Origin: a virus | Direction: 5' to 3' (one strand) | Virus record (IMG/VR): IMGVR_UViG_3300005663_000618 | Coordinates: 1 to 21,288 of that record | DNA length: 21,288 nucleotides | In this document: positions 501-19,535 of the stretch, one piece after another | Layout of the letters: each line of letters starts with the position of its first letter | Numbering within the stretch: position 1 is the first letter of the stretch | Notes under the pieces: generated by a model | Told to the model about the DNA's origin: nothing | Database searches by the model: none | What the model saw: only the letters and a program-made list of their open reading frames with translations | Program-made: the position numbers and the translations under genes

Positions 501-770
501 TTAATACTCAATAACTATTTTACGGAATGGAGCTTTTCCGTTCTGCGGTTGCCCGCCTGGTCTTCCACCGCCTTGTCCCATCGGGGGTCTTTGCCCACCT
601 GGATGTTGTCCTGGCCCGCCTTGCACGAAAGGCGGTCTCGGTTGTCCTAGCGGTTGTCCAGGTCTTTGCCCCATAGGCGGTTGCATCAGCCCCATAGGTG
701 GTCTTCTTAAACCTCCCGTAGGCTGTTGTCCTATAGGTGGTCTCTGTGGTGTTCTTCTTCCATTTGGCAT
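501..770 (-). CDS. Pro/Gly/Gln-rich low-complexity protein
   Basis: The 89-residue product is almost entirely Pro, Gly, Gln, Arg and Met. Motifs like RPPMGQ and PGGQ recur over residues 8-80, followed by a more ordinary C-terminus (KAPFRKIVIEY). It has a good ribosome binding site, AGGAGG five bases before the ATG. It is expected to be disordered or a collagen/polyproline-like extended chain. It has no membrane segment or signal peptide. It lies directly after the 777-residue distal tail protein, with a 9-base gap. Possible roles are a linker or decoration on the virion, or an assembly helper. Composition is very unlike its neighbours, but the frame is open, well started and in the operon. 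Function unknown. Confidence 0.65.
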   Translation of the reverse strand: MPNGRRTPQRPPIGQQPTGGLRRPPMGLMQPPMGQRPGQPLGQPRPPFVQGGPGQHPGGQRPPMGQGGGRPGGQPQNGKAPFRKIVIEY

Positions 771-779
771 TTTCTCCTC

Positions 780-3113
780 CTAAGAAAGCGTTATCTCCTC
801 AAGTAATAAATCGTATAAACTTTCAGGGCTTTTTTGCCCTTCTGTCCATTTAACATTTCTTTCCATAGCACTAATACAGGCGACATATTTTTTAGTTGAC
901 CCCTTACTGTCTATGTCGTAAAAGGTATTCGGCCAGACTTTATTTATGGCTTCCTCTATGGCGTCCTTCATTGAAGTGTAGGTTTCACTCTCTTCCGAAC
1001 CATCTCTGGTCTTATGTTCGTCTGCTAGTTTAACCGTCGTAGCGATTAGCATTCGTCTTGTAGGCCGCCAAATGCCACGACAATCATAATTTACTAATTT
1101 AGGTGTAGTTGAGGTAGCGTCTGTTACTAAAGTAAAACGAAATCTTATCATCTCACCCGTTACGGAAGAGAAGTATTTTGTCTGGGAAGGCGATGTGATG
1201 AAGTTACCCAGATTAGTCCAAGTCCCCGTTAAAGCTGTAAAATATGTCTGATAATCTACGGTAATGTAATTGGTAGCATCACACCCTTCAGTAGTCAAGG
1301 TCAATTTAAAGTAAGCCTTGTTATCTGCTTTCAAGTTAGCGTGTAACCACGAAGTTATTACATATCCCCCTGTTTGGAACGAGTAATTAGTATCGCCAGT
1401 TATATCACCATATTTAGTTGTAAGCGATATCCACCACACACTGTCACTAGAACTCGTTGATGCTATCCATAGTCTTTTCTTATAGACACTTGTGACTTTA
1501 GCAGTCTCACAGCCCGTTAATGTTATTTGTTGAATAGGATGCCAAGCCCACAAAACCGACCCGTCAACAGTTCTTAACTGCCCAGCGACAATTTCTAGTT
1601 TAGTAGTGTTATCTAATATAGCGTAAAGATAATCTTCATCCGCAGCTAACGCTTGAACCTGTCCCGCAAAGTCCGATAAGTTGGTAGAATATAGAGAAGG
1701 AGACCGCCAAGTTATAGTCCCACCATCGTATTCTACTAATCCATTCTCACCAGCGGGGATATAGACTTTAGTGTGCCAAGGCAAAAGGTTTTTAGCATTA
1801 TCGCTTCGTTTTAGAGACTGCATATCCTCTACTAGTGCAAAGTCGTCATCTGAAGTGTCAAAATACCAAGCCGTATCTTCTTTCCCGATATAGATAGTAT
1901 CAGTATCACCTATCATATCGGTTATGTCTTCTGATGCGTTACCTACTGTTAAAATCGTCCCCCAAGAACCCGCATTTGTAGGGTCAGTAGATTTATAACA
2001 ACTTCTAGGTTTAAGTCCCTTGACCATTGTCTGACCGCTTGCCGTTCCTCTAACCGCAGCATAAAGCATATATCCGTCCACCGCACCCGCAAGAGTAGAT
2101 TGGGTAAAACTTTCAGAGGTGGACATATAGAAGTATTTAGCAGACGCACCTAATAGAATATACAAATTACCATCAGAGAAAGGAACGAGGTCGGTTATAA
2201 CACTGCCCATACTCTTAACAAAAGTCCAGCCATCGCCAGTAGCATTTAGCTTAACTAGAGTATCCCCATATGCCATATACCAAACATCATTAAATTCGGC
2301 AAAGGCTTTGGGATTGCCGTGAGTGGGGCCTCCCCAGACTACGGCATCAAAATAAACTGAGGCAGAGGAAGAAATATAATCGTAATTCAGGCGTATTTGT
2401 AATTCTGTGGCATTTCCGCTTATAGTTCGGGTAACACTTATTCGTGTCCAAGTATCGTCAACCGCTAAAGATGTGCCGTTTGTCGTTCCGATACCGTCAT
2501 AGATAGATAGGAAACCTGTAGCGTTAGCAGATAAATCAGCTTGGCAGTAAGCGAAGAAAGTTACTTCTTGGTTTCTAAACCCTACATCCCAAGTGATACT
2601 CTGTTTTAGATAACCATCTTGGTTTGTCCCTATTTTAGCGGAATAAGTCCCAGCATATACTATAGTGCTTTCTCTGTTAATCGTTCCTAAAGTAACATTA
2701 GTCCAGTTGGTTAAAGTAGTAGAATTAGTCCAAATCTCAAGCCCGCCATCGGTTATACTCGCCCCGTAAGAATAATCCGTTATAGCAATCCCTGTCGCTT
2801 TCGGCCCGCAGATTATATTATCCCTAAATCTAGCGTCTGCTCCTTTGGATAGATAATACCTTTTCTTATCTATACTGTCAGCGAACTCTAACCCATAACC
2901 ACTGTCATAAGTAGATTGAGTTAAGGCCAATTCCTTTTCGGGCGGTAAAGCCCCATAGGAAGGTTCACCAGTAAAGTATTGCTGAGCCAATGCGGGGTCG
3001 TCAAAACGCCTGTATAACTTATGTCCGTTCTTATCTTCTGCTAACATAAGACCGACATCAGTCCCATCGGTTCTCTCAAGAGAAATATCGTATTTTAACC
3101 CACCCTTACTCAT
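780..3113 (-). CDS. Large distal tail protein, probable beta-propeller with carbohydrate-binding-like module
   Basis: The 777-residue product appears beta-rich. Residues 120-260 resemble a jelly-roll carbohydrate-binding-like module: GLEIW near the start, AGTYSAKI, a central DTWTRISVT, and SVYFDAVVWGG at the end. Residues about 265-530 contain recurring blade-like units (FNDVWYMAYGDTLVKL, DGNLYILLG, DTIYIGKEDTAWYF, DEDYLYAILD), which suggests a beta-propeller. Residues about 560-685 form another beta domain ending in STTPKLVNY, and the last 90 residues are mixed helix/strand. Such proteins sit at the tail tip or as fibres and can recognise the cell surface. The start overlaps the previous stop (ATGA). 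The exact tail role, whether nozzle, hub or receptor-binding protein, cannot be fixed from sequence alone. Confidence 0.7.
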   Translation of the reverse strand: MSKGGLKYDISLERTDGTDVGLMLAEDKNGHKLYRRFDDPALAQQYFTGEPSYGALPPEKELALTQSTYDSGYGLEFADSIDKKRYYLSKGADARFRDNIICGPKATGIAITDYSYGASITDGGLEIWTNSTTLTNWTNVTLGTINRESTIVYAGTYSAKIGTNQDGYLKQSITWDVGFRNQEVTFFAYCQADLSANATGFLSIYDGIGTTNGTSLAVDDTWTRISVTRTISGNATELQIRLNYDYISSSASVYFDAVVWGGPTHGNPKAFAEFNDVWYMAYGDTLVKLNATGDGWTFVKSMGSVITDLVPFSDGNLYILLGASAKYFYMSTSESFTQSTLAGAVDGYMLYAAVRGTASGQTMVKGLKPRSCYKSTDPTNAGSWGTILTVGNASEDITDMIGDTDTIYIGKEDTAWYFDTSDDDFALVEDMQSLKRSDNAKNLLPWHTKVYIPAGENGLVEYDGGTITWRSPSLYSTNLSDFAGQVQALAADEDYLYAILDNTTKLEIVAGQLRTVDGSVLWAWHPIQQITLTGCETAKVTSVYKKRLWIASTSSSDSVWWISLTTKYGDITGDTNYSFQTGGYVITSWLHANLKADNKAYFKLTLTTEGCDATNYITVDYQTYFTALTGTWTNLGNFITSPSQTKYFSSVTGEMIRFRFTLVTDATSTTPKLVNYDCRGIWRPTRRMLIATTVKLADEHKTRDGSEESETYTSMKDAIEEAINKVWPNTFYDIDSKGSTKKYVACISAMERNVKWTEGQKSPESLYDLLLEEITLS

Positions 3114-3416: not shown

Positions 3417-4259
3417 TTATCTCCCTTTTACTGTTAAACTTAAAGAGCGTGGCAGGAGCGTGAAAGCAACACTCCGACTTTGTAGTGATAAACTTAGGGT
3501 TCTACTTTCCAGAGTTAGAGCAACTACTCTTGTCTTAAATGTAAAACCAAAGAGGCGAGACCTTAGCGTGAGTTTTATCCACTCAGATATATGCTGGACT
3601 ACACCAAGAACACTAATCCCAAACAAAACGGTTGCAGACCTTATGTAACCGAATGTCCTTGTAGCCGAGACCGCTATCCCGATAGCAACGGTGGCTGTTT
3701 CAACAATTTGCTGTATTACAGACGCCGTTCCAACTGCCGTTATAAGTTCACCAATACTAACAGTTGCAGACCGAACAAAGGCTACAACTCTGGTAGCAGT
3801 GGTCAGGATACCTACACTGACGCTGGACAATCTTGTTACTGTCCTTGCCCTAGTCGCACTAACAAGTTCTCCGATTAGAACAGTAGCTGACCTAATAACA
3901 TTCCTTGTCGCTGTGGCGGTGACTAGCAACCCCACTAATACTGCCGAAGCTCTAGTATAGGTAGCTACCCTTGATGTGGTAATCAACTCACCTATGAGAA
4001 CAGTGGCACTTCTAATCCAAGTAACCGACTTTGCAGCCGTCACCAGTTCCCCTATAAGGACGGTAGATGTGCGGACAAAACCTTGTACCCTTGTTGCTGT
4101 TACCAATAACCCGACAGAGACACTGGCGGTAACAGTGATGGCTGCTCCCGTAGTATCAATAACTACATAGGCTTGACCAAGAACCCATATTATTACTTCA
4201 TCTTCATTGCTAAGATGGGCTTCACCTAATACCCAAACCTGCTTATCGCCCAGAGCCAT
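3417..4259 (-). CDS. Tandem-repeat structural protein (20-residue then 9-residue repeats)
   Basis: The 280-residue product is almost all repeat. Residues 9-14 and 25-30 carry twin WVLGEA/WVLGQA motifs. Residues 45-229 are nine tandem units of about 20 residues, with a consensus like ATVLIGELVTATR followed by a short variable strand ending in RS. Residues 230-280 are five and a half 9-residue units of the form LTLxSRxxx. Gly at position 6 and Arg near position 13 recur. The alternating hydrophobic pattern predicts beta-strands, so an extended beta-solenoid or fibre shaft is possible. It lies between a beta-helix adhesin (TAATG overlap) and the distal tail genes, which favours a virion fibre. 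Membrane insertion is an alternative given how hydrophobic the units are. I cannot name a characterised family. Confidence 0.65.
   Translation of the reverse strand: MALGDKQVWVLGEAHLSNEDEVIIWVLGQAYVVIDTTGAAITVTASVSVGLLVTATRVQGFVRTSTVLIGELVTAAKSVTWIRSATVLIGELITTSRVATYTRASAVLVGLLVTATATRNVIRSATVLIGELVSATRARTVTRLSSVSVGILTTATRVVAFVRSATVSIGELITAVGTASVIQQIVETATVAIGIAVSATRTFGYIRSATVLFGISVLGVVQHISEWIKLTLRSRLFGFTFKTRVVALTLESRTLSLSLQSRSVAFTLLPRSLSLTVKGR
3420..3572 (-). repeat. C-terminal 9-residue coding repeats
   Basis: Residues 230-280 of the repeat protein divide cleanly into LTLRSRLFG, FTFKTRVVA, LTLESRTLS, LSLQSRSVA, FTLLPRSLS and a final LTVKGR. An aromatic or Leu at position 1 and Arg at position 6 recur. 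The period of 9 differs from the 20-residue units just before it, so it is a separate repeat family joined to the first. Confidence 0.75.
3573..4127 (-). repeat. Nine tandem coding repeats of about 60 bp
   Basis: These are the 20-residue units of the repeat protein, covering residues 45-229. Seven of the first eight units are exactly 20 residues. The seventh is 24 and the last about 21. The amino-acid pattern is well kept (VxxGxLVTATR then RS), while the codons differ between units. This indicates old duplication with selection on the protein rather than recent slippage. Confidence 0.75.
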
Positions 4260-6971: not shown

Positions 6972-8318
6972 CTATAAAGGATTTATATGTATCGTCCCCG
7001 ACCTTACGGGTTTGGAGTGTTTTAGTAGTCTTATGTAGTCATTATAGGCAAAATACATTTCCCTTTCGTAACTTTCTTTGTCCATAGAAGATACGACCCC
7101 CTTCTTCTTCTGATAAAGCAAGTATTTAGCGAAAGCAATTATAAGCTCTATCTCACCTGCCTTATTAGTAGCGATTGTATCCGTAGAAGCTGATAGGGTT
7201 TCGTAGGGTTTAGTGCCTGTTATTCTAAGTCGTCTTTTACTGAAACTACGATAAGCGTATGGTAATCTCAAGAATAAATCCGACCCGTCATCTACCAAAT
7301 CCCAACCAAAAACACGCTCATAGTCGTTGTCAGGAGAGAAGTCATCGCACATATTATCTGTAGCATTTGGTGGATTGCCTGTTAGTTGATACTCTACTAA
7401 ATCAATCCCCCCAGACTGTAGGTCAGAAGAGAGTAGATAATCATTCATCGGGAAGCTACCTGTAATATAGCAGTCGTCAAAGATAACATATTTGGTATCA
7501 GTATTAACCCTTAGACGGATTTCAGCCTCCCGTAAATTGTCGTTTATGCTTTGGTCTTCTAATTGGAGAATGGTAAATTCCCCTGCAGGGCAAGATGTCG
7601 TAGAAGTTAGGGTTTGTGCCGTCCCGTCTGCCTGTTTGGTATAAATGGTAATGTCGGCATCATCTGCGACCTCAGGTAACACAGCACAATAAACACTTAT
7701 CGTTCTACCCTGAATGGTAGGGAGTAATCTTCTCCAGTTATCGGATTTTAAGGTCATATATCCATTGGCAGCAGAGGCAGTTACCTTAACAGCGTTTACC
7801 CCACCCCAAGTATCGGTAGTTTCTTTCGCTCCTGTTGCATTAGAGTAAGCCCATTTATCAGGCGTTCCGCTTGTGGTTTGGGTTTCCAAGTGAGCATTAG
7901 GTAACGGATTACCCAAAATTAAAGTAAGGTCGTCTATGGACTTATAAATTGAGGGATAGAGTTCACCGATTGCCCTTGATATACTATCTTTTCTATCTGC
8001 CCAACTTGACCGTGCTATTCTAACTTTGGCTAAATTAGCTCCGTCAGTTAAAAGATTAGCTCCATAGACATACGCCGTCCCTGAAGATGTAACATAAGGA
8101 GTTGAACCTAGAAGTCTTGACACTCCAGCGTTGGCTTTGTCTTCAATATAAACCCATCGGTTGTCAAAATATCCGTTCTGGGCGTGGTCATAGTTATTTA
8201 ATTCAGTAGAGACAATAAGTTTAGACGCAGCTATAGCCGTTGTTAGCGTAACCTGCGTAAAATCTCCTTGTGCTTCTAAAAGTTTTTCGTCTAATGAAAG
8301 TAGTGTTGTAGTCGGCAT
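6972..8318 (-). CDS. Connector/neck-like structural protein with jelly-roll insert
   Basis: In this 448-residue protein, residues 1-130 contain a beta-rich start and then a helix with ISRAIGELYPSIY, a pattern seen in phage head-tail adaptor-like proteins. The C-terminal 60 residues are again helical (AFAKYLLYQKKKG, YEREMYFAYNDYIRLL). Residues 136-288 look like an inserted carbohydrate-binding-like jelly roll: PNAHLE with a Trp nearby, GRTISVYCAVLP, and VIFDDCYITGS at its end. The helical halves would contact the portal or neck and the insert would be exposed. A GAGG site lies six bases before the ATG, right after the 30-residue basic gene. It could instead be a tail fibre subunit, so the adaptor call is only moderately supported. 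Confidence 0.5.
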   Translation of the reverse strand: MPTTTLLSLDEKLLEAQGDFTQVTLTTAIAASKLIVSTELNNYDHAQNGYFDNRWVYIEDKANAGVSRLLGSTPYVTSSGTAYVYGANLLTDGANLAKVRIARSSWADRKDSISRAIGELYPSIYKSIDDLTLILGNPLPNAHLETQTTSGTPDKWAYSNATGAKETTDTWGGVNAVKVTASAANGYMTLKSDNWRRLLPTIQGRTISVYCAVLPEVADDADITIYTKQADGTAQTLTSTTSCPAGEFTILQLEDQSINDNLREAEIRLRVNTDTKYVIFDDCYITGSFPMNDYLLSSDLQSGGIDLVEYQLTGNPPNATDNMCDDFSPDNDYERVFGWDLVDDGSDLFLRLPYAYRSFSKRRLRITGTKPYETLSASTDTIATNKAGEIELIIAFAKYLLYQKKKGVVSSMDKESYEREMYFAYNDYIRLLKHSKPVRSGTIHINPL

Positions 8319-12069: not shown

Positions 12070-12279
12070 TTATGTTTTTTCTTTATTGTTTATTTCAGGA
12101 ATGACTTCTAGGTTCAAAAACTGTTTGACCGCAGTTAAAATCCCTGGCGGTAAAACGAGTTCAACCTTCCCGTCTCCCTGTATCCCGCCGTCCATTGTGT
12201 TATACCTACAAGCAAATGTTAGGTTTCCACTTTCATCGGTCATAAAATACAAGGTCTTACTTTCACTTATGGTCTTCAT
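12070..12279 (-). CDS. Hypothetical 69-residue protein
   Basis: The small protein begins MKTISESKTLYFMTDESGNL, with beta-strand-like alternation, and then has a segment VELVLPPGILTAVKQFLNLE that looks like a strand followed by a helix. The ATG follows the previous stop directly (TAAATG), with an AAGGAG overlapping the end of the 1080-residue gene, and a short gap separates its end from the scaffold gene. It has no membrane segment and no Zn or nucleotide motif. Position between a large virion protein and the scaffold suggests a head-assembly accessory. Function unknown. Confidence 0.6.
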   Translation of the reverse strand: MKTISESKTLYFMTDESGNLTFACRYNTMDGGIQGDGKVELVLPPGILTAVKQFLNLEVIPEINNKEKT

Positions 12280-15200
12280 TTAGCTCCTTGAATAAAAGAG
12301 GTCAAGATAATATCCGATTAGCGGATTACCCCGCTTAATCGCTTTTCTACGCCTTGCTATAAAGGCGTCCTTTCGTGGGTTGTCTAACCCTCCGAAATAC
12401 TTGTCAGCTTCACTTAGCACCTCCCAATATGGTTTTAGTATCATTTGAGCTTCTTTTAGTTGTAGAAACTCAGGCGGGTAATCATCGTATTTTAAGGCAC
12501 GATATTCTTCAACATAATTAAACATCTCCTGCCCCATATCTCTGAGGAGTTCTTCCTTCCTCGCATCAGCCTCTCCGTATTTGTAATTCCCGAACTCGTC
12601 ATACATATCCTCGCCCCAAAGGGCATCGCTATAAGCTCTTATGGCTAACTGTTCGGGGCCAAGCCCTACTACCGCCTCTGCCATATCCTGAACCCCTAAG
12701 CGTTTAACTATATCCTCAAAGCGTAACTCCTGTTCCCTCGCCTGATAACCCCCATTCCTGCCGTCATATGCTTTGCCTACCTTCACTCTAAATTGATAAC
12801 CATCACCAGTTTGTCGGTATTCCGCCGCCGCTAACTCTACATTCGTTCTAAACACTTCATCTATTGCCTTACCAGATTGGTGCCAATCACTCCAAGCAAA
12901 CCCCATAGTTTGTCTATCAAACGCAATCATAGCCGCTTGAAGTTCTGGGTTCATATTTTCTATCTCTCTGCGTCTCTTAGGGTCTATTGCATCCCACGCT
13001 TCATACCCCATATCTCTGGCTATTTTCTGCTGAATACGGTTAAGGTCATTAACATGGGTAAGAACGCCTATGCCAAGAAAAGCTGGGACTCCTGTCCATA
13101 TACCATTCACCCCGTCCATCTCCATAGCATCCATCACATCCTGAACAGCTAACGGAAGAAGGCGGTCTCTAGCTACTTTGATAAATCCAGTCGTTTCTTC
13201 AAATATCGGTTCTCCCAGATAATTCTCACCCTTCCATAAATCAGCTAATAAACCAACAGCAGGAGAGAACTTGGTTTGAGCAAATCTTAAAGCTACGTCC
13301 CACCTTTCAGCCTTATTCATATTCCCAAAGGCTGACTTTCTTTCACCCGTTAGCATCTGTGCAGCAAATCGGGCGTATTGGATATAACCTCTCCACGGGT
13401 CTAATCTGGTTTCACTATATATCGGATTTCCTTGAGCGTCTTCTCCTGTCCTAATCCTAATCTTCCCAAAATCACCAGCACGGGGGTCTAATTCCACTTT
13501 AGCCGCCCCTGTAATGTTAAGTAGTCCTATTAGAGATACCCCACCACCTACGAATGTCGCAAGAGCCAACCCCCCCTGCTTTCTTAGATAAGGGTTTTTA
13601 GAAAGTAACATTCGCCCTATTATTTTGGGTAGTCCGAGAGTTGACATCTGGTATCTAGGTGAAAACAGAAGTGCATTTAATACGGGAGCGTATTGGGTCA
13701 TATTAAGAGGTAAAGTCCCCCTACCAGAGGCATAGTTAATAAAATCCCCAAACAATTTGAGATGTTCAGGTAGTAATTTTGTAAGTCCTTCACTACCCGC
13801 CGCTTGGGCTTGTAGAACACCATAACCCGCCTCCACTGCACTCATTCTCATTTCATTAAGATACCCCGTGAATGCTCTTTCCGACCTTCTAACAAATGGA
13901 ATGTTTTGGGCTAGGTTGGAGAAAAACGGTTCTTCTTTCACCCTTGATAAAGCACCCCTTTCCATCGCTTGAAATTCAACCCTCATTTCTCTGACGGCTA
14001 CAGGATACAAGGGGCGACTTCGCAACGCATTGTGCATCTCTAGGGATAACTTTTCAGAACCAAAGTATTTTAATTGTCTCCAAAAAGCACGGGGGACATC
14101 TTGCGGTCTCACTAACCCTAAAATCAAACCCTGTCTAAAGGTAGCTGAAAGGTCAAGCGTAGCAAGAACGGCACGAGGTAAGTTAAGCCCATCTATAATC
14201 TTTGCTCTAATGCTTGGTTTTAGGTTGATAAACTTCCCCGTAGCTTCGGCAAACTCTTTACCAAAAACTGACGACCATTGCTCTAAGAAACGAGGTTCTG
14301 GTATTAAGCCAAGAATTAAAAGGTCATCTAGTGCATTTACACTACCAAGAGCCACAAAGCCGTCTTGTTCTGCTTTATTTATCTTAGCCATAAACTCTGC
14401 CATTTCCTCTTTTCTAAAAGGCACAGCAGTAAATTCGGGGCTTTTCTGTATTTTAGTTTTTAGAGCCTTAGCTACCGATTTATCAAGCCCTTCGCTTATT
14501 ACCCTAGCGTCAACTTCAGCGATGGCTTTTGCCTGTCTAGCTGCTAGAGCTTCGGGGGTTAAGGCGAACTCTTCCTTTGTTCCACCAAGTTTTGCCAAAT
14601 CCCTATCTACTCTTCTGCGCCACTCTTGTTGTAAAATTCTACCCTCTGCGAAAGTAGCTCTATGTTTTTCTATAACCGCCCTTTGGGCGGGTCTCAACTC
14701 TTCAGGAATGAGACGATGCACCTTCCCAAAGGCAGGCATCACTGCTTCCTTCCAGTATTTAGTTAGTTTGGTTTCAGCTATAGTTGGCGGTAAAGGGTCG
14801 GGCATTTTACCCCAGAGTTTCTCACTAACCGATTTGCCCACTCTTTCGCTAATAAAACCTATGCTTTTTATTCCACCTTTAATAGCTTTACCAGCAGTCT
14901 TTTCTACCAAACCCCAAGGGGAGTATTCAACTACATAGCCTAATGCCTTGCCAGCAGGAGCTACTGCCTGAAATGCACCAGCTAGGGCGGTCTTCTGTCC
15001 TATAGTTTCTAGTTTGCCTAATTTACCAGCTATACCAACCCCCCGCCCAACCTGTCCCACTCCAGGGATTAACAACCAAGGTGCGATTTCCATTACGCCC
15101 TTTAGGTCAAGTCTGTAAGGTTCATCACTCCAGGGGACATTATAATTAAATCCAGGTGCATCCCACCCAGACCAAGACCTCTTCTTCCACTCCCAGAAAT

Positions 15201-15522
15201 CCTCACCTTCGTCTCTTTCTACCTCATCTACAAACCCTAAAGTAGTCCCCGACATGGCAAGCCCTGGTTGAATAATGTTCTCATCCACCCACACAAAGGG
15301 GGTAGCGAATACCTGTAACGCCCTCTTCCAAAAAGGTAGGGGTTCTTCTATTTGTGGTGCGGTAACTTGAGGAACACCAATCTGTGGTATTTGGGGCATC
15401 CCACCTTGAATTAGAGGAGAAGGCGGTTTAATCAAAGGTTGAGGTTTTATCTGCCCACCCCAAGATATAGGTGGTGGTTCATAAGGTGGATATACCACTA
15501 ATAACCCCCTGACGGTGCCCAT
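12280..15522 (-). CDS. Very large internal (ejection-type) virion protein candidate
   Basis: The 1080-residue protein starts with a Pro-rich, possibly disordered segment (residues 10-62). Hydrophobic stretches occur at about 143-190 (IAPWLLIPGVGQVGRGVGIA), 650-672 (GLALATFVGGGVSLIGLLNI) and 805-823. Residues 449-475 (RAVLATLDLSATFRQGLILG), an ERAFTGYLNEMR segment near 548-559 and a LLFSPRYQMS segment at 618-627 recall a recurrent block in very large phage proteins, including those with polyvalent domains. I recall this from memory and have not checked it. Helical, charged regions fill the rest. Being large, helical and partly membrane-seeking, it may be packaged and ejected to form a channel. 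Its start overlaps the previous stop by 25 bases and has a GAGG site nine bases before the ATG. Confidence 0.6.
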   Translation of the reverse strand: MGTVRGLLVVYPPYEPPPISWGGQIKPQPLIKPPSPLIQGGMPQIPQIGVPQVTAPQIEEPLPFWKRALQVFATPFVWVDENIIQPGLAMSGTTLGFVDEVERDEGEDFWEWKKRSWSGWDAPGFNYNVPWSDEPYRLDLKGVMEIAPWLLIPGVGQVGRGVGIAGKLGKLETIGQKTALAGAFQAVAPAGKALGYVVEYSPWGLVEKTAGKAIKGGIKSIGFISERVGKSVSEKLWGKMPDPLPPTIAETKLTKYWKEAVMPAFGKVHRLIPEELRPAQRAVIEKHRATFAEGRILQQEWRRRVDRDLAKLGGTKEEFALTPEALAARQAKAIAEVDARVISEGLDKSVAKALKTKIQKSPEFTAVPFRKEEMAEFMAKINKAEQDGFVALGSVNALDDLLILGLIPEPRFLEQWSSVFGKEFAEATGKFINLKPSIRAKIIDGLNLPRAVLATLDLSATFRQGLILGLVRPQDVPRAFWRQLKYFGSEKLSLEMHNALRSRPLYPVAVREMRVEFQAMERGALSRVKEEPFFSNLAQNIPFVRRSERAFTGYLNEMRMSAVEAGYGVLQAQAAGSEGLTKLLPEHLKLFGDFINYASGRGTLPLNMTQYAPVLNALLFSPRYQMSTLGLPKIIGRMLLSKNPYLRKQGGLALATFVGGGVSLIGLLNITGAAKVELDPRAGDFGKIRIRTGEDAQGNPIYSETRLDPWRGYIQYARFAAQMLTGERKSAFGNMNKAERWDVALRFAQTKFSPAVGLLADLWKGENYLGEPIFEETTGFIKVARDRLLPLAVQDVMDAMEMDGVNGIWTGVPAFLGIGVLTHVNDLNRIQQKIARDMGYEAWDAIDPKRRREIENMNPELQAAMIAFDRQTMGFAWSDWHQSGKAIDEVFRTNVELAAAEYRQTGDGYQFRVKVGKAYDGRNGGYQAREQELRFEDIVKRLGVQDMAEAVVGLGPEQLAIRAYSDALWGEDMYDEFGNYKYGEADARKEELLRDMGQEMFNYVEEYRALKYDDYPPEFLQLKEAQMILKPYWEVLSEADKYFGGLDNPRKDAFIARRRKAIKRGNPLIGYYLDLFYSRS

Positions 15523-16370
15523 CTTACCGTCCCTCTGGGCGAAGTTTTAGGTAAGAGTTGCTCACTTCTGTAATACCAGTCTTCAAAACTAGCAGGTGCT
15601 CCTTGAACCTGACCAGCAGACCAATTAATAAACCCCCCCAAACCTTTCAGTTGGGATGGATTAAATTTCTTTAATGTTTGACCACTGGCTAGTTTGGTTG
15701 GTGCTGGTAAAAGATGTTGCCCAGGCGTTAAGGGAGTTATTTCATCTATAGCCATCCAAGCAGGTGCTGGTGGGCCTTGGGGTATTGGAGGAGGAGCGAA
15801 ACCACCATACACAGGCGGGGTGTATCCTGCTCCAGCGGTTCTATCATTCGCTACCGCCCAAGCGTAAGCATCTTCGTAGTTATATGCAATAATCTCATCA
15901 GGATGCCCTTCGTGTCTGGCAAAATATGTAAGGACGTTAGTATCCCCACTAACCCCTTCGTAAATATCAAACTGCCCTAAATCAAGTTGAGGTTCTACGC
16001 CATAACCCCCCACATCAAGGGCAAACATCCAAAACTGAGCATCCGCCCCAAAGACACTTAGCCATAAATTATCTCTCTCTTCATTACTGAAACCTTGACC
16101 TGATGGACGGATTTCGTTAAACCACCTTGAGTAAGCGTTTTGGTATTCTTCTAAACTAATACCATAATCAGCTAGTCCTCTTTGTTGATACCACGCTTCG
16201 TTGGGGATAGTCCCCATATAGTTTTCTTGCTGCCAATTCGGGTCAAAGTAATCAGGATTCGCCTCTAGCCAAGCGTTACGGTCTTCTTCCTCTAAACCAG
16301 CTAAATACTCATCCCAACCCTGCGGTTGCCAATTAGGTAGTTGATAGGGATAAACTTCTCCATGTGCCAT
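15498..16370 (-). CDS. Trp/Tyr/Pro-rich virion protein of unknown function
   Basis: I chose the ATG at 16370, giving 290 residues, because it has GGAGG six bases upstream and overlaps the previous stop as TAATG. An upstream ATG at 16445 would add 25 implausible residues. The N-terminal half is unusually rich in Trp, Tyr, Asn and Gln (PYQLPNWQPQGWDEYLAGLE, YQNAYSRWFNEI). The centre is a Pro/Gly linker (GGFAPPPIPQGPPAPAW). The C-terminal part (KKFNPSQLKGLGGFINWSAG) is basic and probably structured. It has no signal peptide or membrane helix. It sits between the coiled-coil protein and the 1080-residue protein and may be one of three internal virion proteins. No family recognised. Confidence 0.6.
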   Translation of the reverse strand: MAHGEVYPYQLPNWQPQGWDEYLAGLEEEDRNAWLEANPDYFDPNWQQENYMGTIPNEAWYQQRGLADYGISLEEYQNAYSRWFNEIRPSGQGFSNEERDNLWLSVFGADAQFWMFALDVGGYGVEPQLDLGQFDIYEGVSGDTNVLTYFARHEGHPDEIIAYNYEDAYAWAVANDRTAGAGYTPPVYGGFAPPPIPQGPPAPAWMAIDEITPLTPGQHLLPAPTKLASGQTLKKFNPSQLKGLGGFINWSAGQVQGAPASFEDWYYRSEQLLPKTSPRGTVRWAPSGGY

Positions 16371-17566
16371 TAACCACCTCCTAATTGAGGAAAGGACTGG
16401 ACTGGAGGAGGCGTTCCCGTTGGTTGCCCATACACTCCCGCCCATTTGGGGTTTTCAAATCCCCATCTCGCTAACCAGTCCATAGGATGTCTTTGTAATT
16501 CAGCCCCTATTTGCCTTTCTCTTAATGCTCTGTCTAATCCCTTCTGCTCAAATTCACCCGTTTGATAAGCTGATAAGTTTTCAAATTCAAATTCCTGCCT
16601 AGCCATTGAGTCCGCCCACTGTTGCTTCTCAAACTCAAACTTCTCTCTATCAAAGTCAAACTGCATCTGTTCCGCCATAGTTAGCTGTTCGTAAGGCTTC
16701 ATCAACATTGCAAGATATTGAGACTGGTATTCACTTAAATTACCGAACTCAAAAAGGTCTTGTAGGTATTTATCTCTCTCAAGTTGGATGCGTTCTTCTT
16801 CAAGCCCTAGCCCTGCTTCTGCCACCCCCACTCGGCGTTCCTCAAGCCCGACACGCTCTTCTTCAAGCCCGAACATCCTCTCCCACTGTTCTTGTGAGAT
16901 GTTGCCTTGCTGCTTCTGCCATTCAAACTGTTCTTGGCTTAAACCAAATACAGCCTGTTGGTTGGCTGTTAGTTCGTTCCACTCACGCTCCATTAAAGCA
17001 AGTTGGGCAGCTTGGAACTGCGTCATACCCAACGCTTCTTTTTGGCTGATAGAGGCATAGAAATCTAATAGTTGGTCTCTTAATTGGTCGCTTACGGGAT
17101 TACCAGCGGTATCTGTCCATTTGCCCTCAGCGTCTTGCATTAACCCGCCATCTATCTCTTGCGGGACATAGATTACGCCTTGTGCTACCTCTTCGGCAGC
17201 ACTAGCTTGAATAACCCAAATGGGGTCTCCTAGTGGGCCGACAAACACCCCTTCCTCATCTACTTCCCATTCTTGTAATGCCCACTCAAGACCTTCAGGT
17301 AAATCTAGTGTGGGCATATCAGAAGATATGCTTTGGGGGAGACCTCGCCCCTCCTTGTAAATATCCCAAAGTTCGTCTTCGGGAGAACGGACTTCTTCAG
17401 GCAGAGGCGTATTCGGTGCCCCTCTTGATAACCAGTCCCAAACACCAAGAGTTCCGCCAACCTGTAAGTAAGCGATATAATCATCTGCGGTCAAAGGATT
17501 ACCAGTAAACCAAGTAGCAGCACGAATTAGCCAGTCATCCCACACATTACTTTCGTATTCGGGCAT
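16370..17566 (-). CDS. Gln/Glu-rich coiled-coil virion protein
   Basis: In this 398-residue protein, residues 1-115 are Trp- and acid-rich with short motifs (DDWLIRAATWF, LGVWDWLSRG). Residues 185-350 form a long, Gln/Glu-rich helical region that includes a heptad array at 233-260 (GLEEERV, GLEERRV, GVAEAGL, GLEEERI), followed by more coiled-coil-like sequence (FDFDREKFEFEKQQW). The C-terminal 20 residues are Pro/Gly/Gln-rich. The start shares an A with the previous stop (TAATG), with a G-rich site five bases upstream. Such helical rods near the portal are often internal core, scaffold-like or ejection proteins. The family is not recognised. Confidence 0.65.
   Translation of the reverse strand: MPEYESNVWDDWLIRAATWFTGNPLTADDYIAYLQVGGTLGVWDWLSRGAPNTPLPEEVRSPEDELWDIYKEGRGLPQSISSDMPTLDLPEGLEWALQEWEVDEEGVFVGPLGDPIWVIQASAAEEVAQGVIYVPQEIDGGLMQDAEGKWTDTAGNPVSDQLRDQLLDFYASISQKEALGMTQFQAAQLALMEREWNELTANQQAVFGLSQEQFEWQKQQGNISQEQWERMFGLEEERVGLEERRVGVAEAGLGLEEERIQLERDKYLQDLFEFGNLSEYQSQYLAMLMKPYEQLTMAEQMQFDFDREKFEFEKQQWADSMARQEFEFENLSAYQTGEFEQKGLDRALRERQIGAELQRHPMDWLARWGFENPKWAGVYGQPTGTPPPVQSFPQLGGG
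16787..16870 (-). repeat. Four 21-bp (7-residue) coding repeats
   Basis: Four tandem 7-residue units of the type GLEEERV encode a continuous heptad in the coiled-coil protein. The DNA also repeats: CTTGAGG or CTTGAAG-type blocks recur every 21 bases. The third unit (GVAEAGL) has diverged, which argues against a very recent expansion. Confidence 0.65.
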
Positions 17567-17832
17567 TATAACCCCCTAGCCTCTTTATTCCGTAAGGCTT
17601 CCTTCTCCAGTCCCACATAAGCACCCATCCCGTATTTCATAATCAACTGTTGTTTTATATCTTGATTTTCAGGGAGTTCTAACTTATCGTATAAATACAA
17701 CATATCTACAGGAGGGGTAAGGTCGGTATTAAAAGGTTTAACATTCCCCCATTCCTTATCAATATAGGACATAACATTTTCTACATTCTTACTGACTTCT
17801 TGTAGGACTTTATCGCCTATGTTTTCTTTCAT
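17566..17832 (-). CDS. Hypothetical 88-residue protein downstream of the portal
   Basis: The 88-residue product is mixed helical: an N-terminal Lys/Glu/Val helix (residues 5-27, VLQEVSKNVENVMSYIDKEW), a short extended segment, and a second helical part (DKLELPENQDIKQQLIMKYG) ending in a basic tail. It has no membrane segment, Cys pair or recognisable motif. It overlaps the portal stop by 4 bases (ATGA) and its own stop overlaps the next start (TAATG), so it is probably translationally coupled to both. Position suggests a head-assembly helper or a portal-associated protein. Function unknown. Confidence 0.6.
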   Translation of the reverse strand: MKENIGDKVLQEVSKNVENVMSYIDKEWGNVKPFNTDLTPPVDMLYLYDKLELPENQDIKQQLIMKYGMGAYVGLEKEALRNKEARGL

Positions 17833-19535
17833 CCTAATCCTGGAGACATTCTTGGCGGTCTATTCGCTAATTGCATATCAGCGTCTTTAGCCAATGCGTC
17901 TATACTTTTTCTATTACCGGTTCTTGGGGGGCCGCCTCTTGCTCCCCGTTGACCTGGAACGGGGCCCGTAGGCGGTGCTCCCTCCGCTGGCGGGGGTTCT
18001 ATCCCTAGTTTCTCTAAAGCTGCCATACCAATAGTAGTAGCGAACTCAGGACTATTCATAAACTTTTCTGCCCTAGTTTTGACTATTATCCTTTGTGCCT
18101 CGTCTAAAGATTTACCCTGAAACTCAATGAGGTTCGTTTCGTGGTCTATCTCGCCTATTTGCCATTTTGATGTCCCTATCTGGGCTTGGGCTTTGTCTTC
18201 TATGGGGTCGGCTGCTTTAAGTTTGAGAGTGCAACGGAGGTCATCTATATCGCTGTCCTCAAGTATGATTGCTTTTCTAACACCTTCGGCTGGGACTGTC
18301 GCTCTTAGAGTAAGAGGTAGTAAACCTAAGTCTTTGTTCTTCATCATCCTCAATGTCAACGAAAGTGCCATAGCCCAAGCTGTAGAAGCGTTGTCAACAA
18401 CAGACGCATACTGGGATAAAGAGTGTTTCGTTTCTATATCTTCTGCCCTACCCGAAGAACCACTCCCCATCCCCATCATAAGAGGTGGGGTTGCTCTGGT
18501 AATCTCATACCTTAACATAGACATAAAGTTAAATACTTCAGCTAAAGGAGGCGAACCACCCCTCTCTATAATATTGACACCCCAAGGGACTACATTAGCC
18601 GAGCCATAGTTAAGGTCGTAGTTCTTCACATCATCTTGAGTGAATTTAATTTCTTTGTCGGTAGGTTGGAAATCGTATCTCTTATGAGCGTAGAGTTTCA
18701 GTTGACTTGCTATAGATGAAGCCAATTCGGTGTAAGCTAATATCTTTCCCCTAACTGGTCTAATCCTTGAGACAGCCAACTCTTCGGGGTTTCCATCTGG
18801 GGAAGACTTGCCATACCCAGAGTAACAATGCACAATAGGTGTAAAACCTAATATATTCAGTTGTATTCCACCTTCCAGAACAGGCACACCATCAGCCTGA
18901 AAATACCTTATACCTTTATCAAAATACACCAGCCAATCAACATACTTATCTTTACCTCCCCGACCTAGGGGGTTAGGCCAATGTTCGTATTTGTTTATAA
19001 CCGACTGGAAGTATCTCTTATAAGAAATGAAAAAATAATCAGGTATTCCATTTCTCTCGTCTGCGGAAGCATAAATAATCTTCGGGTCGGGGATACTAAA
19101 GGTTATGGGAATGTCGTCAGGGAATATATCATCCTTAAATTGGTCGTTATTGACTAAATGTATCCACGCCTCACCACTAACTAATTGGTTCTTGACTGTC
19201 TCTTTGAATGGCTGGGGAGACTGGAATGTAAGAAAGTCAACCAGATGGTTTAGGAACGTCCCTCGTTTTAACGCCCTCTCTCTGGCTGTAGTATTGTCAG
19301 CGGTAGCCTCAACATATACTTGGGGTTCAGATGTCACAATGTGCGAAACAGGCACATCAACAATCTCAACACCCACCCCCAATCTTGTTGCCTTATAAGG
19401 AGATTTGATAAAGGGGACGGGAAAGTCGTCTTTGTAATAACTCCAGTCCATCGTTTGCTCTGATATTCTTTTACTGTGATGGGTTACGCTTTCCCATTCG
19501 TAAAGCTCTTGTATTTCCTGTATTGTTCTTGTCAT
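17829..19535 (-). CDS. Portal protein
   Basis: The 568-residue protein forms the ring at one head vertex through which DNA is packed and ejected. Residues 10-60 carry the usual portal start (YKATRLGVGVEIVDV follows a helical N-terminus). Residues about 110-240 form the wing/stem-like mixed domain (QLVSGEAWIHLV, PDPKIIYASADERNG). Residues 255-285 form a long helix. Residues 338-400 contain the characteristic segment with PPLMMGMGSGSSGRAEDIET and a helix HSLSQYASVVDNASTAW, typical of crown/stem regions of portals. The C-terminal 60 residues are a Pro/Gly-rich tail of low complexity. It follows TerL with a 4-base ATGA overlap, the classic gene order. Length is within the family's usual range. 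Confidence 0.85.
   Translation of the reverse strand: MTRTIQEIQELYEWESVTHHSKRISEQTMDWSYYKDDFPVPFIKSPYKATRLGVGVEIVDVPVSHIVTSEPQVYVEATADNTTARERALKRGTFLNHLVDFLTFQSPQPFKETVKNQLVSGEAWIHLVNNDQFKDDIFPDDIPITFSIPDPKIIYASADERNGIPDYFFISYKRYFQSVINKYEHWPNPLGRGGKDKYVDWLVYFDKGIRYFQADGVPVLEGGIQLNILGFTPIVHCYSGYGKSSPDGNPEELAVSRIRPVRGKILAYTELASSIASQLKLYAHKRYDFQPTDKEIKFTQDDVKNYDLNYGSANVVPWGVNIIERGGSPPLAEVFNFMSMLRYEITRATPPLMMGMGSGSSGRAEDIETKHSLSQYASVVDNASTAWAMALSLTLRMMKNKDLGLLPLTLRATVPAEGVRKAIILEDSDIDDLRCTLKLKAADPIEDKAQAQIGTSKWQIGEIDHETNLIEFQGKSLDEAQRIIVKTRAEKFMNSPEFATTIGMAALEKLGIEPPPAEGAPPTGPVPGQRGARGGPPRTGNRKSIDALAKDADMQLANRPPRMSPGLG

Follow-up and report, generated by a model that had tools for sequence, protein, structure and literature searches.

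The question raised by this locus is what is done for a virus by three large proteins encoded one after another between its portal gene and a scaffold-like gene. The window, by which is meant the whole stretch of DNA analysed (21,288 bases; IMG/VR virus record IMGVR_UViG_3300005663_000618), has all of its structural genes on the minus strand. They begin with a small terminase-like ORF and TerL and continue with the portal, the 88-aa, 398-aa and 290-aa ORFs, the giant, a 69-aa ORF, the scaffold-like gene and the major capsid protein (MCP), with tail-type and unknown genes downstream of the MCP (Table 1). Sequence comparison points, with a probability of about 70%, to an ejection-protein (internal virion protein) set that is encoded among the head genes, between portal and scaffold, and not after the tail genes. 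The set probably helps to push the viral DNA into the host, a role proposed because it is conserved beside the portal and because its giant is swapped with that of a podoviral (BPP-1) family.

Table 1. Features of the window, in the order in which they occur on the minus strand.
Feature	Coordinates	Strand	Evidence
Portal protein, 568 aa, locus anchor	17829..19535	-	Homologs in 12 other contigs of the portal tree
Small conserved protein, 88 aa, opening the set	17566..17832	-	Follows the portal in 12/12 contigs aligned
Gln/Glu-rich coiled-coil-like protein, 398 aa	16370..17566	-	34% to the 367-aa protein of L001; 35% to part of the 512-aa protein of L021
Trp/Tyr/Pro-rich protein, 290 aa, bearing the ~90-aa C-terminal module	15498..16370	-	Module HMM
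Type A giant, 1080 aa (ATG), probably 1072 aa from GTG	12280..15522	-	Homologs in relatives
69-aa ORF between giant and scaffold-like gene	12070..12279	-	ORF call
Scaffold-like protein, 250 aa	11308..12060	-	Precedes MCP, highly charged; 59% identity to the 246-aa protein of L001
MCP, 292 aa	10412..11290	-	phrog_267 major head protein, E 4.9e-31
Tail adaptor-like protein, 448 aa (weak assignment)	6972..8318	-	80% to L001 record, 43% to L026
Nozzle-like beta-rich protein, 777 aa (assigned by position only)	780..3113	-	56% to L001, 38-39% to L026 record

The initial annotation described the three proteins as a translationally coupled series with the largest last, and this is confirmed by the ORFs and their junctions, which read TAATG (88 aa/398 aa), TAATG (398 aa/290 aa) and TAGTG (290 aa/giant). 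The 290-aa ORF has that length from its TAATG start, upstream of which is an AGGAGG, and would have 315 aa with an upstream ATG; the alternative GTG start of the giant overlaps the stop of the 290-aa ORF. The coordinates also place the trio between portal and scaffold-like gene as described, with the term scaffold reflecting position and charge, since no PHROG or Pfam family matches that protein. Comparison of the trio with PHROGs and Pfam returned chance-level matches (none better than E 0.014 for the 398-aa protein), in keeping with the earlier description of the proteins as unknown. The list of parts needs amendment: its three ORFs are real, but it left out the conserved 88-aa gene and the 69-aa ORF, for the latter of which a homolog at the same position is absent among the relatives compared. 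The portal, which anchors the locus, matches phrog_64 at E 0.045 in the window and at 1e-4, 3.4e-4 and 4.2e-4 in the related contigs L024, L030 and L034. No relative of the portal was detectable in the annotated phages searched, and a host search of genome contigs found no relative of either the giant or the portal.

Relatives were gathered by scanning viral contigs with the giant, TerL and the portal, which gave 13 distinct related contigs besides the window (L001, L003, L021, L024, L026, L027, L028, L029, L030, L031, L032, L033 and L034). L028, which agrees with L027 in protein lengths and identities, was excluded from the HMM table and from the tree, each of which comprises 13 contigs, the window included. 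Co-conservation in related phages, which had been proposed as a check on the trio, is borne out: by HMM, the order portal, small gene, C-terminal-module protein, giant is found in 11 of the 13 contigs, a proportion that applies to relatives of the window, which retrieval by the portal pattern favours, and not to phages generally. The other two, L021 and L033, stop before the giant and are uninformative, and a contrary order occurs in none. The MCP follows the giant in 10 of the 11, with the L029 contig stopping within the giant. Contigs L030-L034 were retrieved by the portal alone and withheld from HMM building; L033 is too short, and in all four long enough to be informative both module and giant are present, the giant HMMs giving E values of 2e-29, 4e-37 and 6e-166 for giants of type A, the window's type, and 3e-141 for one of a second type, B. 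The conserved unit is made up of the small protein, a coiled-coil/C-terminal-module protein and the giant, not of the three large proteins as first listed.

The small ORF behind the portal encodes 83-108 aa across the contigs. The 88-aa protein has the pattern MKEN..D...KPF, and a KPF-like motif is present in all 12 contigs aligned. The C-terminal module, of about 90 residues, is located in the protein adjoining the giant; an HMM built from 7 sequences, with L030-L034 held out, recognises it in 4/4 held-out neighbours (L030 4e-14, L031 1e-23, L032 1e-7, L034 3e-11). In nine contigs the module is borne by a single ORF of 342-492 aa (L003, L024, L026, L027, L029, L030, L031, L032 and L034), and in the window and L001 by a 290-298-aa protein that is preceded by one of 367-398 aa. 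The gene order, together with a weak resemblance between the 398-aa protein and the single-ORF middle proteins (L024, E 0.006), suggests that the 398-aa and 290-aa ORFs are probably one middle protein split in two, with the former as its N-terminal part. Family scans and comparisons found no described relatives of the small gene or of the coiled-coil protein. The short conserved module, now named, could be a docking part.

Type A giants are present in nine contigs (the window and eight others) and are unrelated in sequence to those of type B. The window giant is 79% identical to that of L001, 48-53% to that of L024, 51% to that of L026 and 45% to that of L027, and the type A profile matches the held-out L030, L031 and L032. 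Among annotated phages, a type A giant is recognisable only in ctf1B273 (MW202497.1), which is podovirus-like and has a 1582-aa protein similar to type A (profile E 5e-22; tblastn 9e-17) and a portal of the SU10 type (PF23899, E 7e-16). Unlike the window, its giant comes after a protein annotated 'phage stabilization protein', and the 331-aa neighbour of the giant is without the C-terminal module; the title of its record, 'Siphoviridae sp.', counts against the ejection reading.

The initial annotation pointed to hydrophobic segments that could span a membrane, one of which, at residues ~652-670, is indeed found in seven of ten type A giants, but the number of such stretches in the window giant (two) is no more than expected by chance (mean 1.48 in 500 shuffles, 42.6% of which have at least two), and they lend the ejection proposal weak support. 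Structure prediction, also proposed as a check, did not help, as the AlphaFold model of the giant from three sequences was unusable (pLDDT 37.8, pTM 0.25). No match was found between the window proteins and T7 or P22 ejection proteins, transglycosylase or solved structures in PHROG, Pfam and PDB comparisons, and PDB sequence searches with alignments of the giants, nozzle-like, adaptor-like and portal proteins returned nothing usable.

Type B giants, present in the two contigs L003 and L034, belong to the Bbp10/phrog_9880 family. Their matches to phrog_9880 are at E 8e-66 for L003, whose giant has 1225 aa, and at E 5e-53 for L034; by tblastn the L003 giant matches Bbp10 of the podovirus BPP-1 (8e-18), and also the giants of Pseudomonas phages AF and PfDIW6, Cobetia phage Carin1, a Vibrio phage and others. 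In six of the seven annotated phage records examined, the type B giant lies downstream of tail tube/nozzle-type genes, the seventh record being cut at the origin. What precedes these post-tail giants is a gene for a lysozyme, a transglycosylase or a peptidase, or else a mid-size gene without a name, and none of their neighbours has the C-terminal module. A further contig, L012, has a giant that is a 51% relative of that of L003 and is preceded by the MCP gene and by adaptor-like, nozzle-like, fibre and LysM/coiled-coil genes; between its portal-like gene and MCP the only ORFs of at least 90 aa are of 112, 198 and 178 aa.

The exchange of giants was followed on a maximum-likelihood tree of 13 portals, with 200 bootstrap trees. 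L003 (type B) is sister to L024 (type A), with support of 100/99, and L034 (type B) is sister to L032 (type A), with 95/95, so that supported branches force at least two A/B switches; none of the 200 bootstrap trees has only one. The L027 branch is long, and the portal may itself have recombined. Regardless of these caveats, the slot that follows related portals and a common module protein is occupied by giants of two families, which range from 896 to 1432 aa, with the other genes without visible change. Type A and type B giants showed no similarity to each other by blastp, hmmsearch or hhalign, nor, by the same methods, did the window giant to the conserved C-terminal ~800 residues of Bbp10/phrog_9880. 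A direct link between the two types was looked for and rejected, leaving common descent unsupported: the hhalign value of 22.7 lies within those of 30 column-permuted controls, the top two of which reach 25.3, and the link is likewise unsupported against reversed controls. A motif noted by eye in both types (a hydrophobic helix after an F..R/NQ stretch) is unsupported by blastp, hmmsearch and hhalign, and is not claimed. That one type is replaced in place by the other, in the same slot, suggests that type A and type B giants do the same job.

Comparison with known systems bears on what that job may be. In the cassette of BPP-1 (Rauchvirus and relatives), bbp12 encodes an internal virion protein, bbp11 a transglycosylase and bbp10 the giant (phrog_9880). 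The L003 and L034 giants are of the same family, in the same slot of the window's lineage, and in both arrangements the largest gene is last. By contrast, the BPP-1 cassette comes after the tail tube and nozzle genes, the type A giant of the window has no detectable homology to Bbp10, and a transglycosylase neighbour was not recognised. The available portions of PMC3863775 and PMC9239159 yielded no proteomics for Bbp10. The set also resembles T7 gp14/gp15/gp16 and P22 gp7/gp20/gp16 in consisting of several coupled genes, roughly from small to large with the largest last; it differs from them in sequence, in which there is no similarity, in genome position, and in the shortness of its first gene product, 85-108 aa. 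In SU10 (Kuravirus), to which the portal of ctf1B273 provides a link of type, the ejection genes gp20-24 are numbered after the nozzle gene; according to the accessible part of PMC9509320, gp20-24 belong to the virion and are lost when the genome is released, gp17 being the nozzle. Their comparison with the window proteins was by family scans.

The internal proteins of T7, P22 and SU10 exit via the portal before the DNA does, forming a channel, as described in the parts of PMC8954989 and PMC9509320 that are available, and podoviral ejection genes run from small to large, with the largest last (PMC8954989). The ejection proposal is made for the present locus because the order small, coiled-coil, largest fits this podoviral pattern (PMC8954989). 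A divergent ejection apparatus, as the initial annotation suggested the trio may be, is the best-supported reading in view of co-conservation and the podoviral giant in the same slot, but homology to T7 or P22 was not found. Packaging, ejection, a conduit function, a short tail and the role of each part are what we infer, in the following form. The small, coiled-coil/C-terminal-module and giant proteins would be packaged in the head, probably at the portal or close to it, would exit before the DNA, and would then lengthen the short tail through the host envelope. By analogy, the giant may correspond to T7 gp16 or BPP-1 Bbp10 as the envelope-crossing or effector component, while a gp15-like part as tube or adaptor may fall to the coiled-coil protein.

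An alternative is that the giant and its partner resemble minor head proteins of the MuF type (SPP1 gp7), or are polyvalent proteins, which would be packaged close to the portal and delivered into the host as effectors, and would form no DNA conduit. In SPP1 the MuF-type minor head gene comes after the portal and before the scaffold, and the set occupies this usual MuF slot. MuF proteins are reported as effector carriers in the available part of PMC5512222, and type B giants elsewhere have effector-like domains, i.e. LPD22 (E 3.5e-25) and PBECR1 (E 1.9e-7) in BPP-1 Bbp10, and weak DnaJ (E 2.6e-5) and ART-PolyVal (E 0.04) matches, both under the Pfam cut-off, in the L012 giant. However, no MuF or polyvalent domain was found in the type A giants scanned, Pfam scans of the window proteins and six other type A giants giving no MuF domain at E up to 1 or 0.1, so that the likeness is one of slot and not of domain. 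The exchange partner of the giant is, moreover, the last gene of T7-like cassettes, and the layout of several genes with the largest last also argues against this alternative, which we regard as unlikely. It overlaps with the ejection reading, as both roles could be filled by these proteins.

Procapsid-assembly or portal-associated factors, or an enzyme, that are not ejected would also be at home between portal and scaffold, and the lack of described relatives for the small gene and the coiled-coil protein is compatible with such roles. A giant of ~1000 residues that is interchangeable with one of the Bbp10 type is, however, no known kind of assembly factor, and an enzyme unrelated to ejection, named from the start as a finding that would count against the trio, gains nothing from the Pfam scans, in which an enzyme domain was not found. 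This explanation is judged highly improbable.

The remaining alternative turns on the type of tail. In the two longest relatives, of 43.0 and 41.2 kb, the only ORFs over 700 aa are the giant and the nozzle-like gene, and there is no ORF of at least 250 aa downstream of the nozzle-like gene on its strand; from these ORF sizes, neither a tape measure nor a second ejection cassette is seen in the two records, which are without terminal repeats and may be incomplete. The nozzle-like and adaptor-like labels derive from position and a beta-rich outline: the 777-aa and 448-aa proteins have no convincing similarity to the known nozzles and adaptors compared, the former matches nothing in PHROGs, Pfam or PDB at better than E 0.08 and has an unusable AlphaFold model (three sequences; pLDDT 38.8, pTM 0.25), and the L026 homolog of the latter matches the phrog_10775 tail protein only at E 0.05. 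Viruses of this uncultured group are probably short-tailed; the BPP-1 and Carin-1 relatives are short-tailed according to the accessible parts of PMC3863775 and PMC13317679. That the giant is instead the tape measure of a long tail, relocated beside the portal, as its rank as largest gene, its alpha-helical outline and hydrophobic stretches and the Siphoviridae label of ctf1B273 might suggest, and as had been named among the findings that would undo the ejection proposal, is the least probable explanation of all, as the type A giants scanned match no PHROG tape-measure family, the giant gene precedes the MCP, the window is without similarity to other tail-tube or tape-measure families, the slot takes the giant of short-tailed BPP-1/Carin-1 relatives (PMC3863775, PMC13317679), and the giant varies widely in length in one slot while the other genes do not visibly change.

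With an ejection set as the preferred reading, what appears to be new here is that the set sits beside the portal and that unrelated giants are exchanged there; no report of ejection genes between portal and scaffold, or in a similarly unusual order, was found in the literature covered, from which most subscription journals are absent. For giant internal proteins, size and gene order are usually the only grounds for a match. The one-slot exchange ties an uncharacterised giant family (type A) to the Bbp10 family, and so to a probable function. Ejection-type genes, it would seem, can sit among head genes, which fits the proposed location of their products on the portal inside the head. It may be, as a tentative proposal with odds below even, that the ejection module of this lineage is an exchangeable cartridge, in which a fixed dock, comprising the portal, the small KPF-motif protein and the C-terminal module of the coiled-coil protein, accepts two unrelated giant families, with at least two replacements of one by the other. 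If this is true, delivery across the host envelope could be re-equipped without a change to the head.

Repeated VLIGELVTA/TATR-like units make up the 280-aa protein of the window, which is probably a beta-repeat or fibre-like protein; the 89-aa ORF is extremely rich in Pro, Gly and Gln, and a PHROG search with it gave no match. In the related contig L001, radical-SAM, NeuB-like and methyltransferase-like genes (so named by eye) lie between the MCP and the tail genes, where the window has different genes, and in two other relatives (L024 and L027) glycosyltransferase-like ORFs lie directly behind the MCP.

Both phages with a giant placed after the tail genes, i.e. the L012 contig and ctf1B273, also have a GroEL-like gene. 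The ATPase-motif region of the L012-contig TerL is, by eye, apparently split by an intein-like insertion ending in ...VTHNS and containing a LAGLIDADG-type-looking stretch. The weak matches of the L012 type B giant, to DnaJ and an ADP-ribosyltransferase, lie in its N-terminal half, both below the Pfam cut-off, and suggest effector cargo as a candidate reading.

Features of the window and related contigs (L040, L012 contig; L025, ctf1B273)
Feature	Coordinates	Remark
280-aa repeat protein	window 3417-4259	VLIGELVTA/TATR-like units
Pro/Gly/Gln-rich ORF, 89 aa	window 501-770	downstream of 777-aa gene
Type B giant	L012:7973-12427	weak DnaJ and ART-PolyVal matches
Radical-SAM, NeuB-like, methyltransferase-like genes	L001:14913-19596	named by eye
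GroEL-like gene	L040:1372-2955	by eye
GroEL-like gene	L025:899-2467	by annotation
TerL, 797 aa	L040:5388-7781	insertion near ATPase motif
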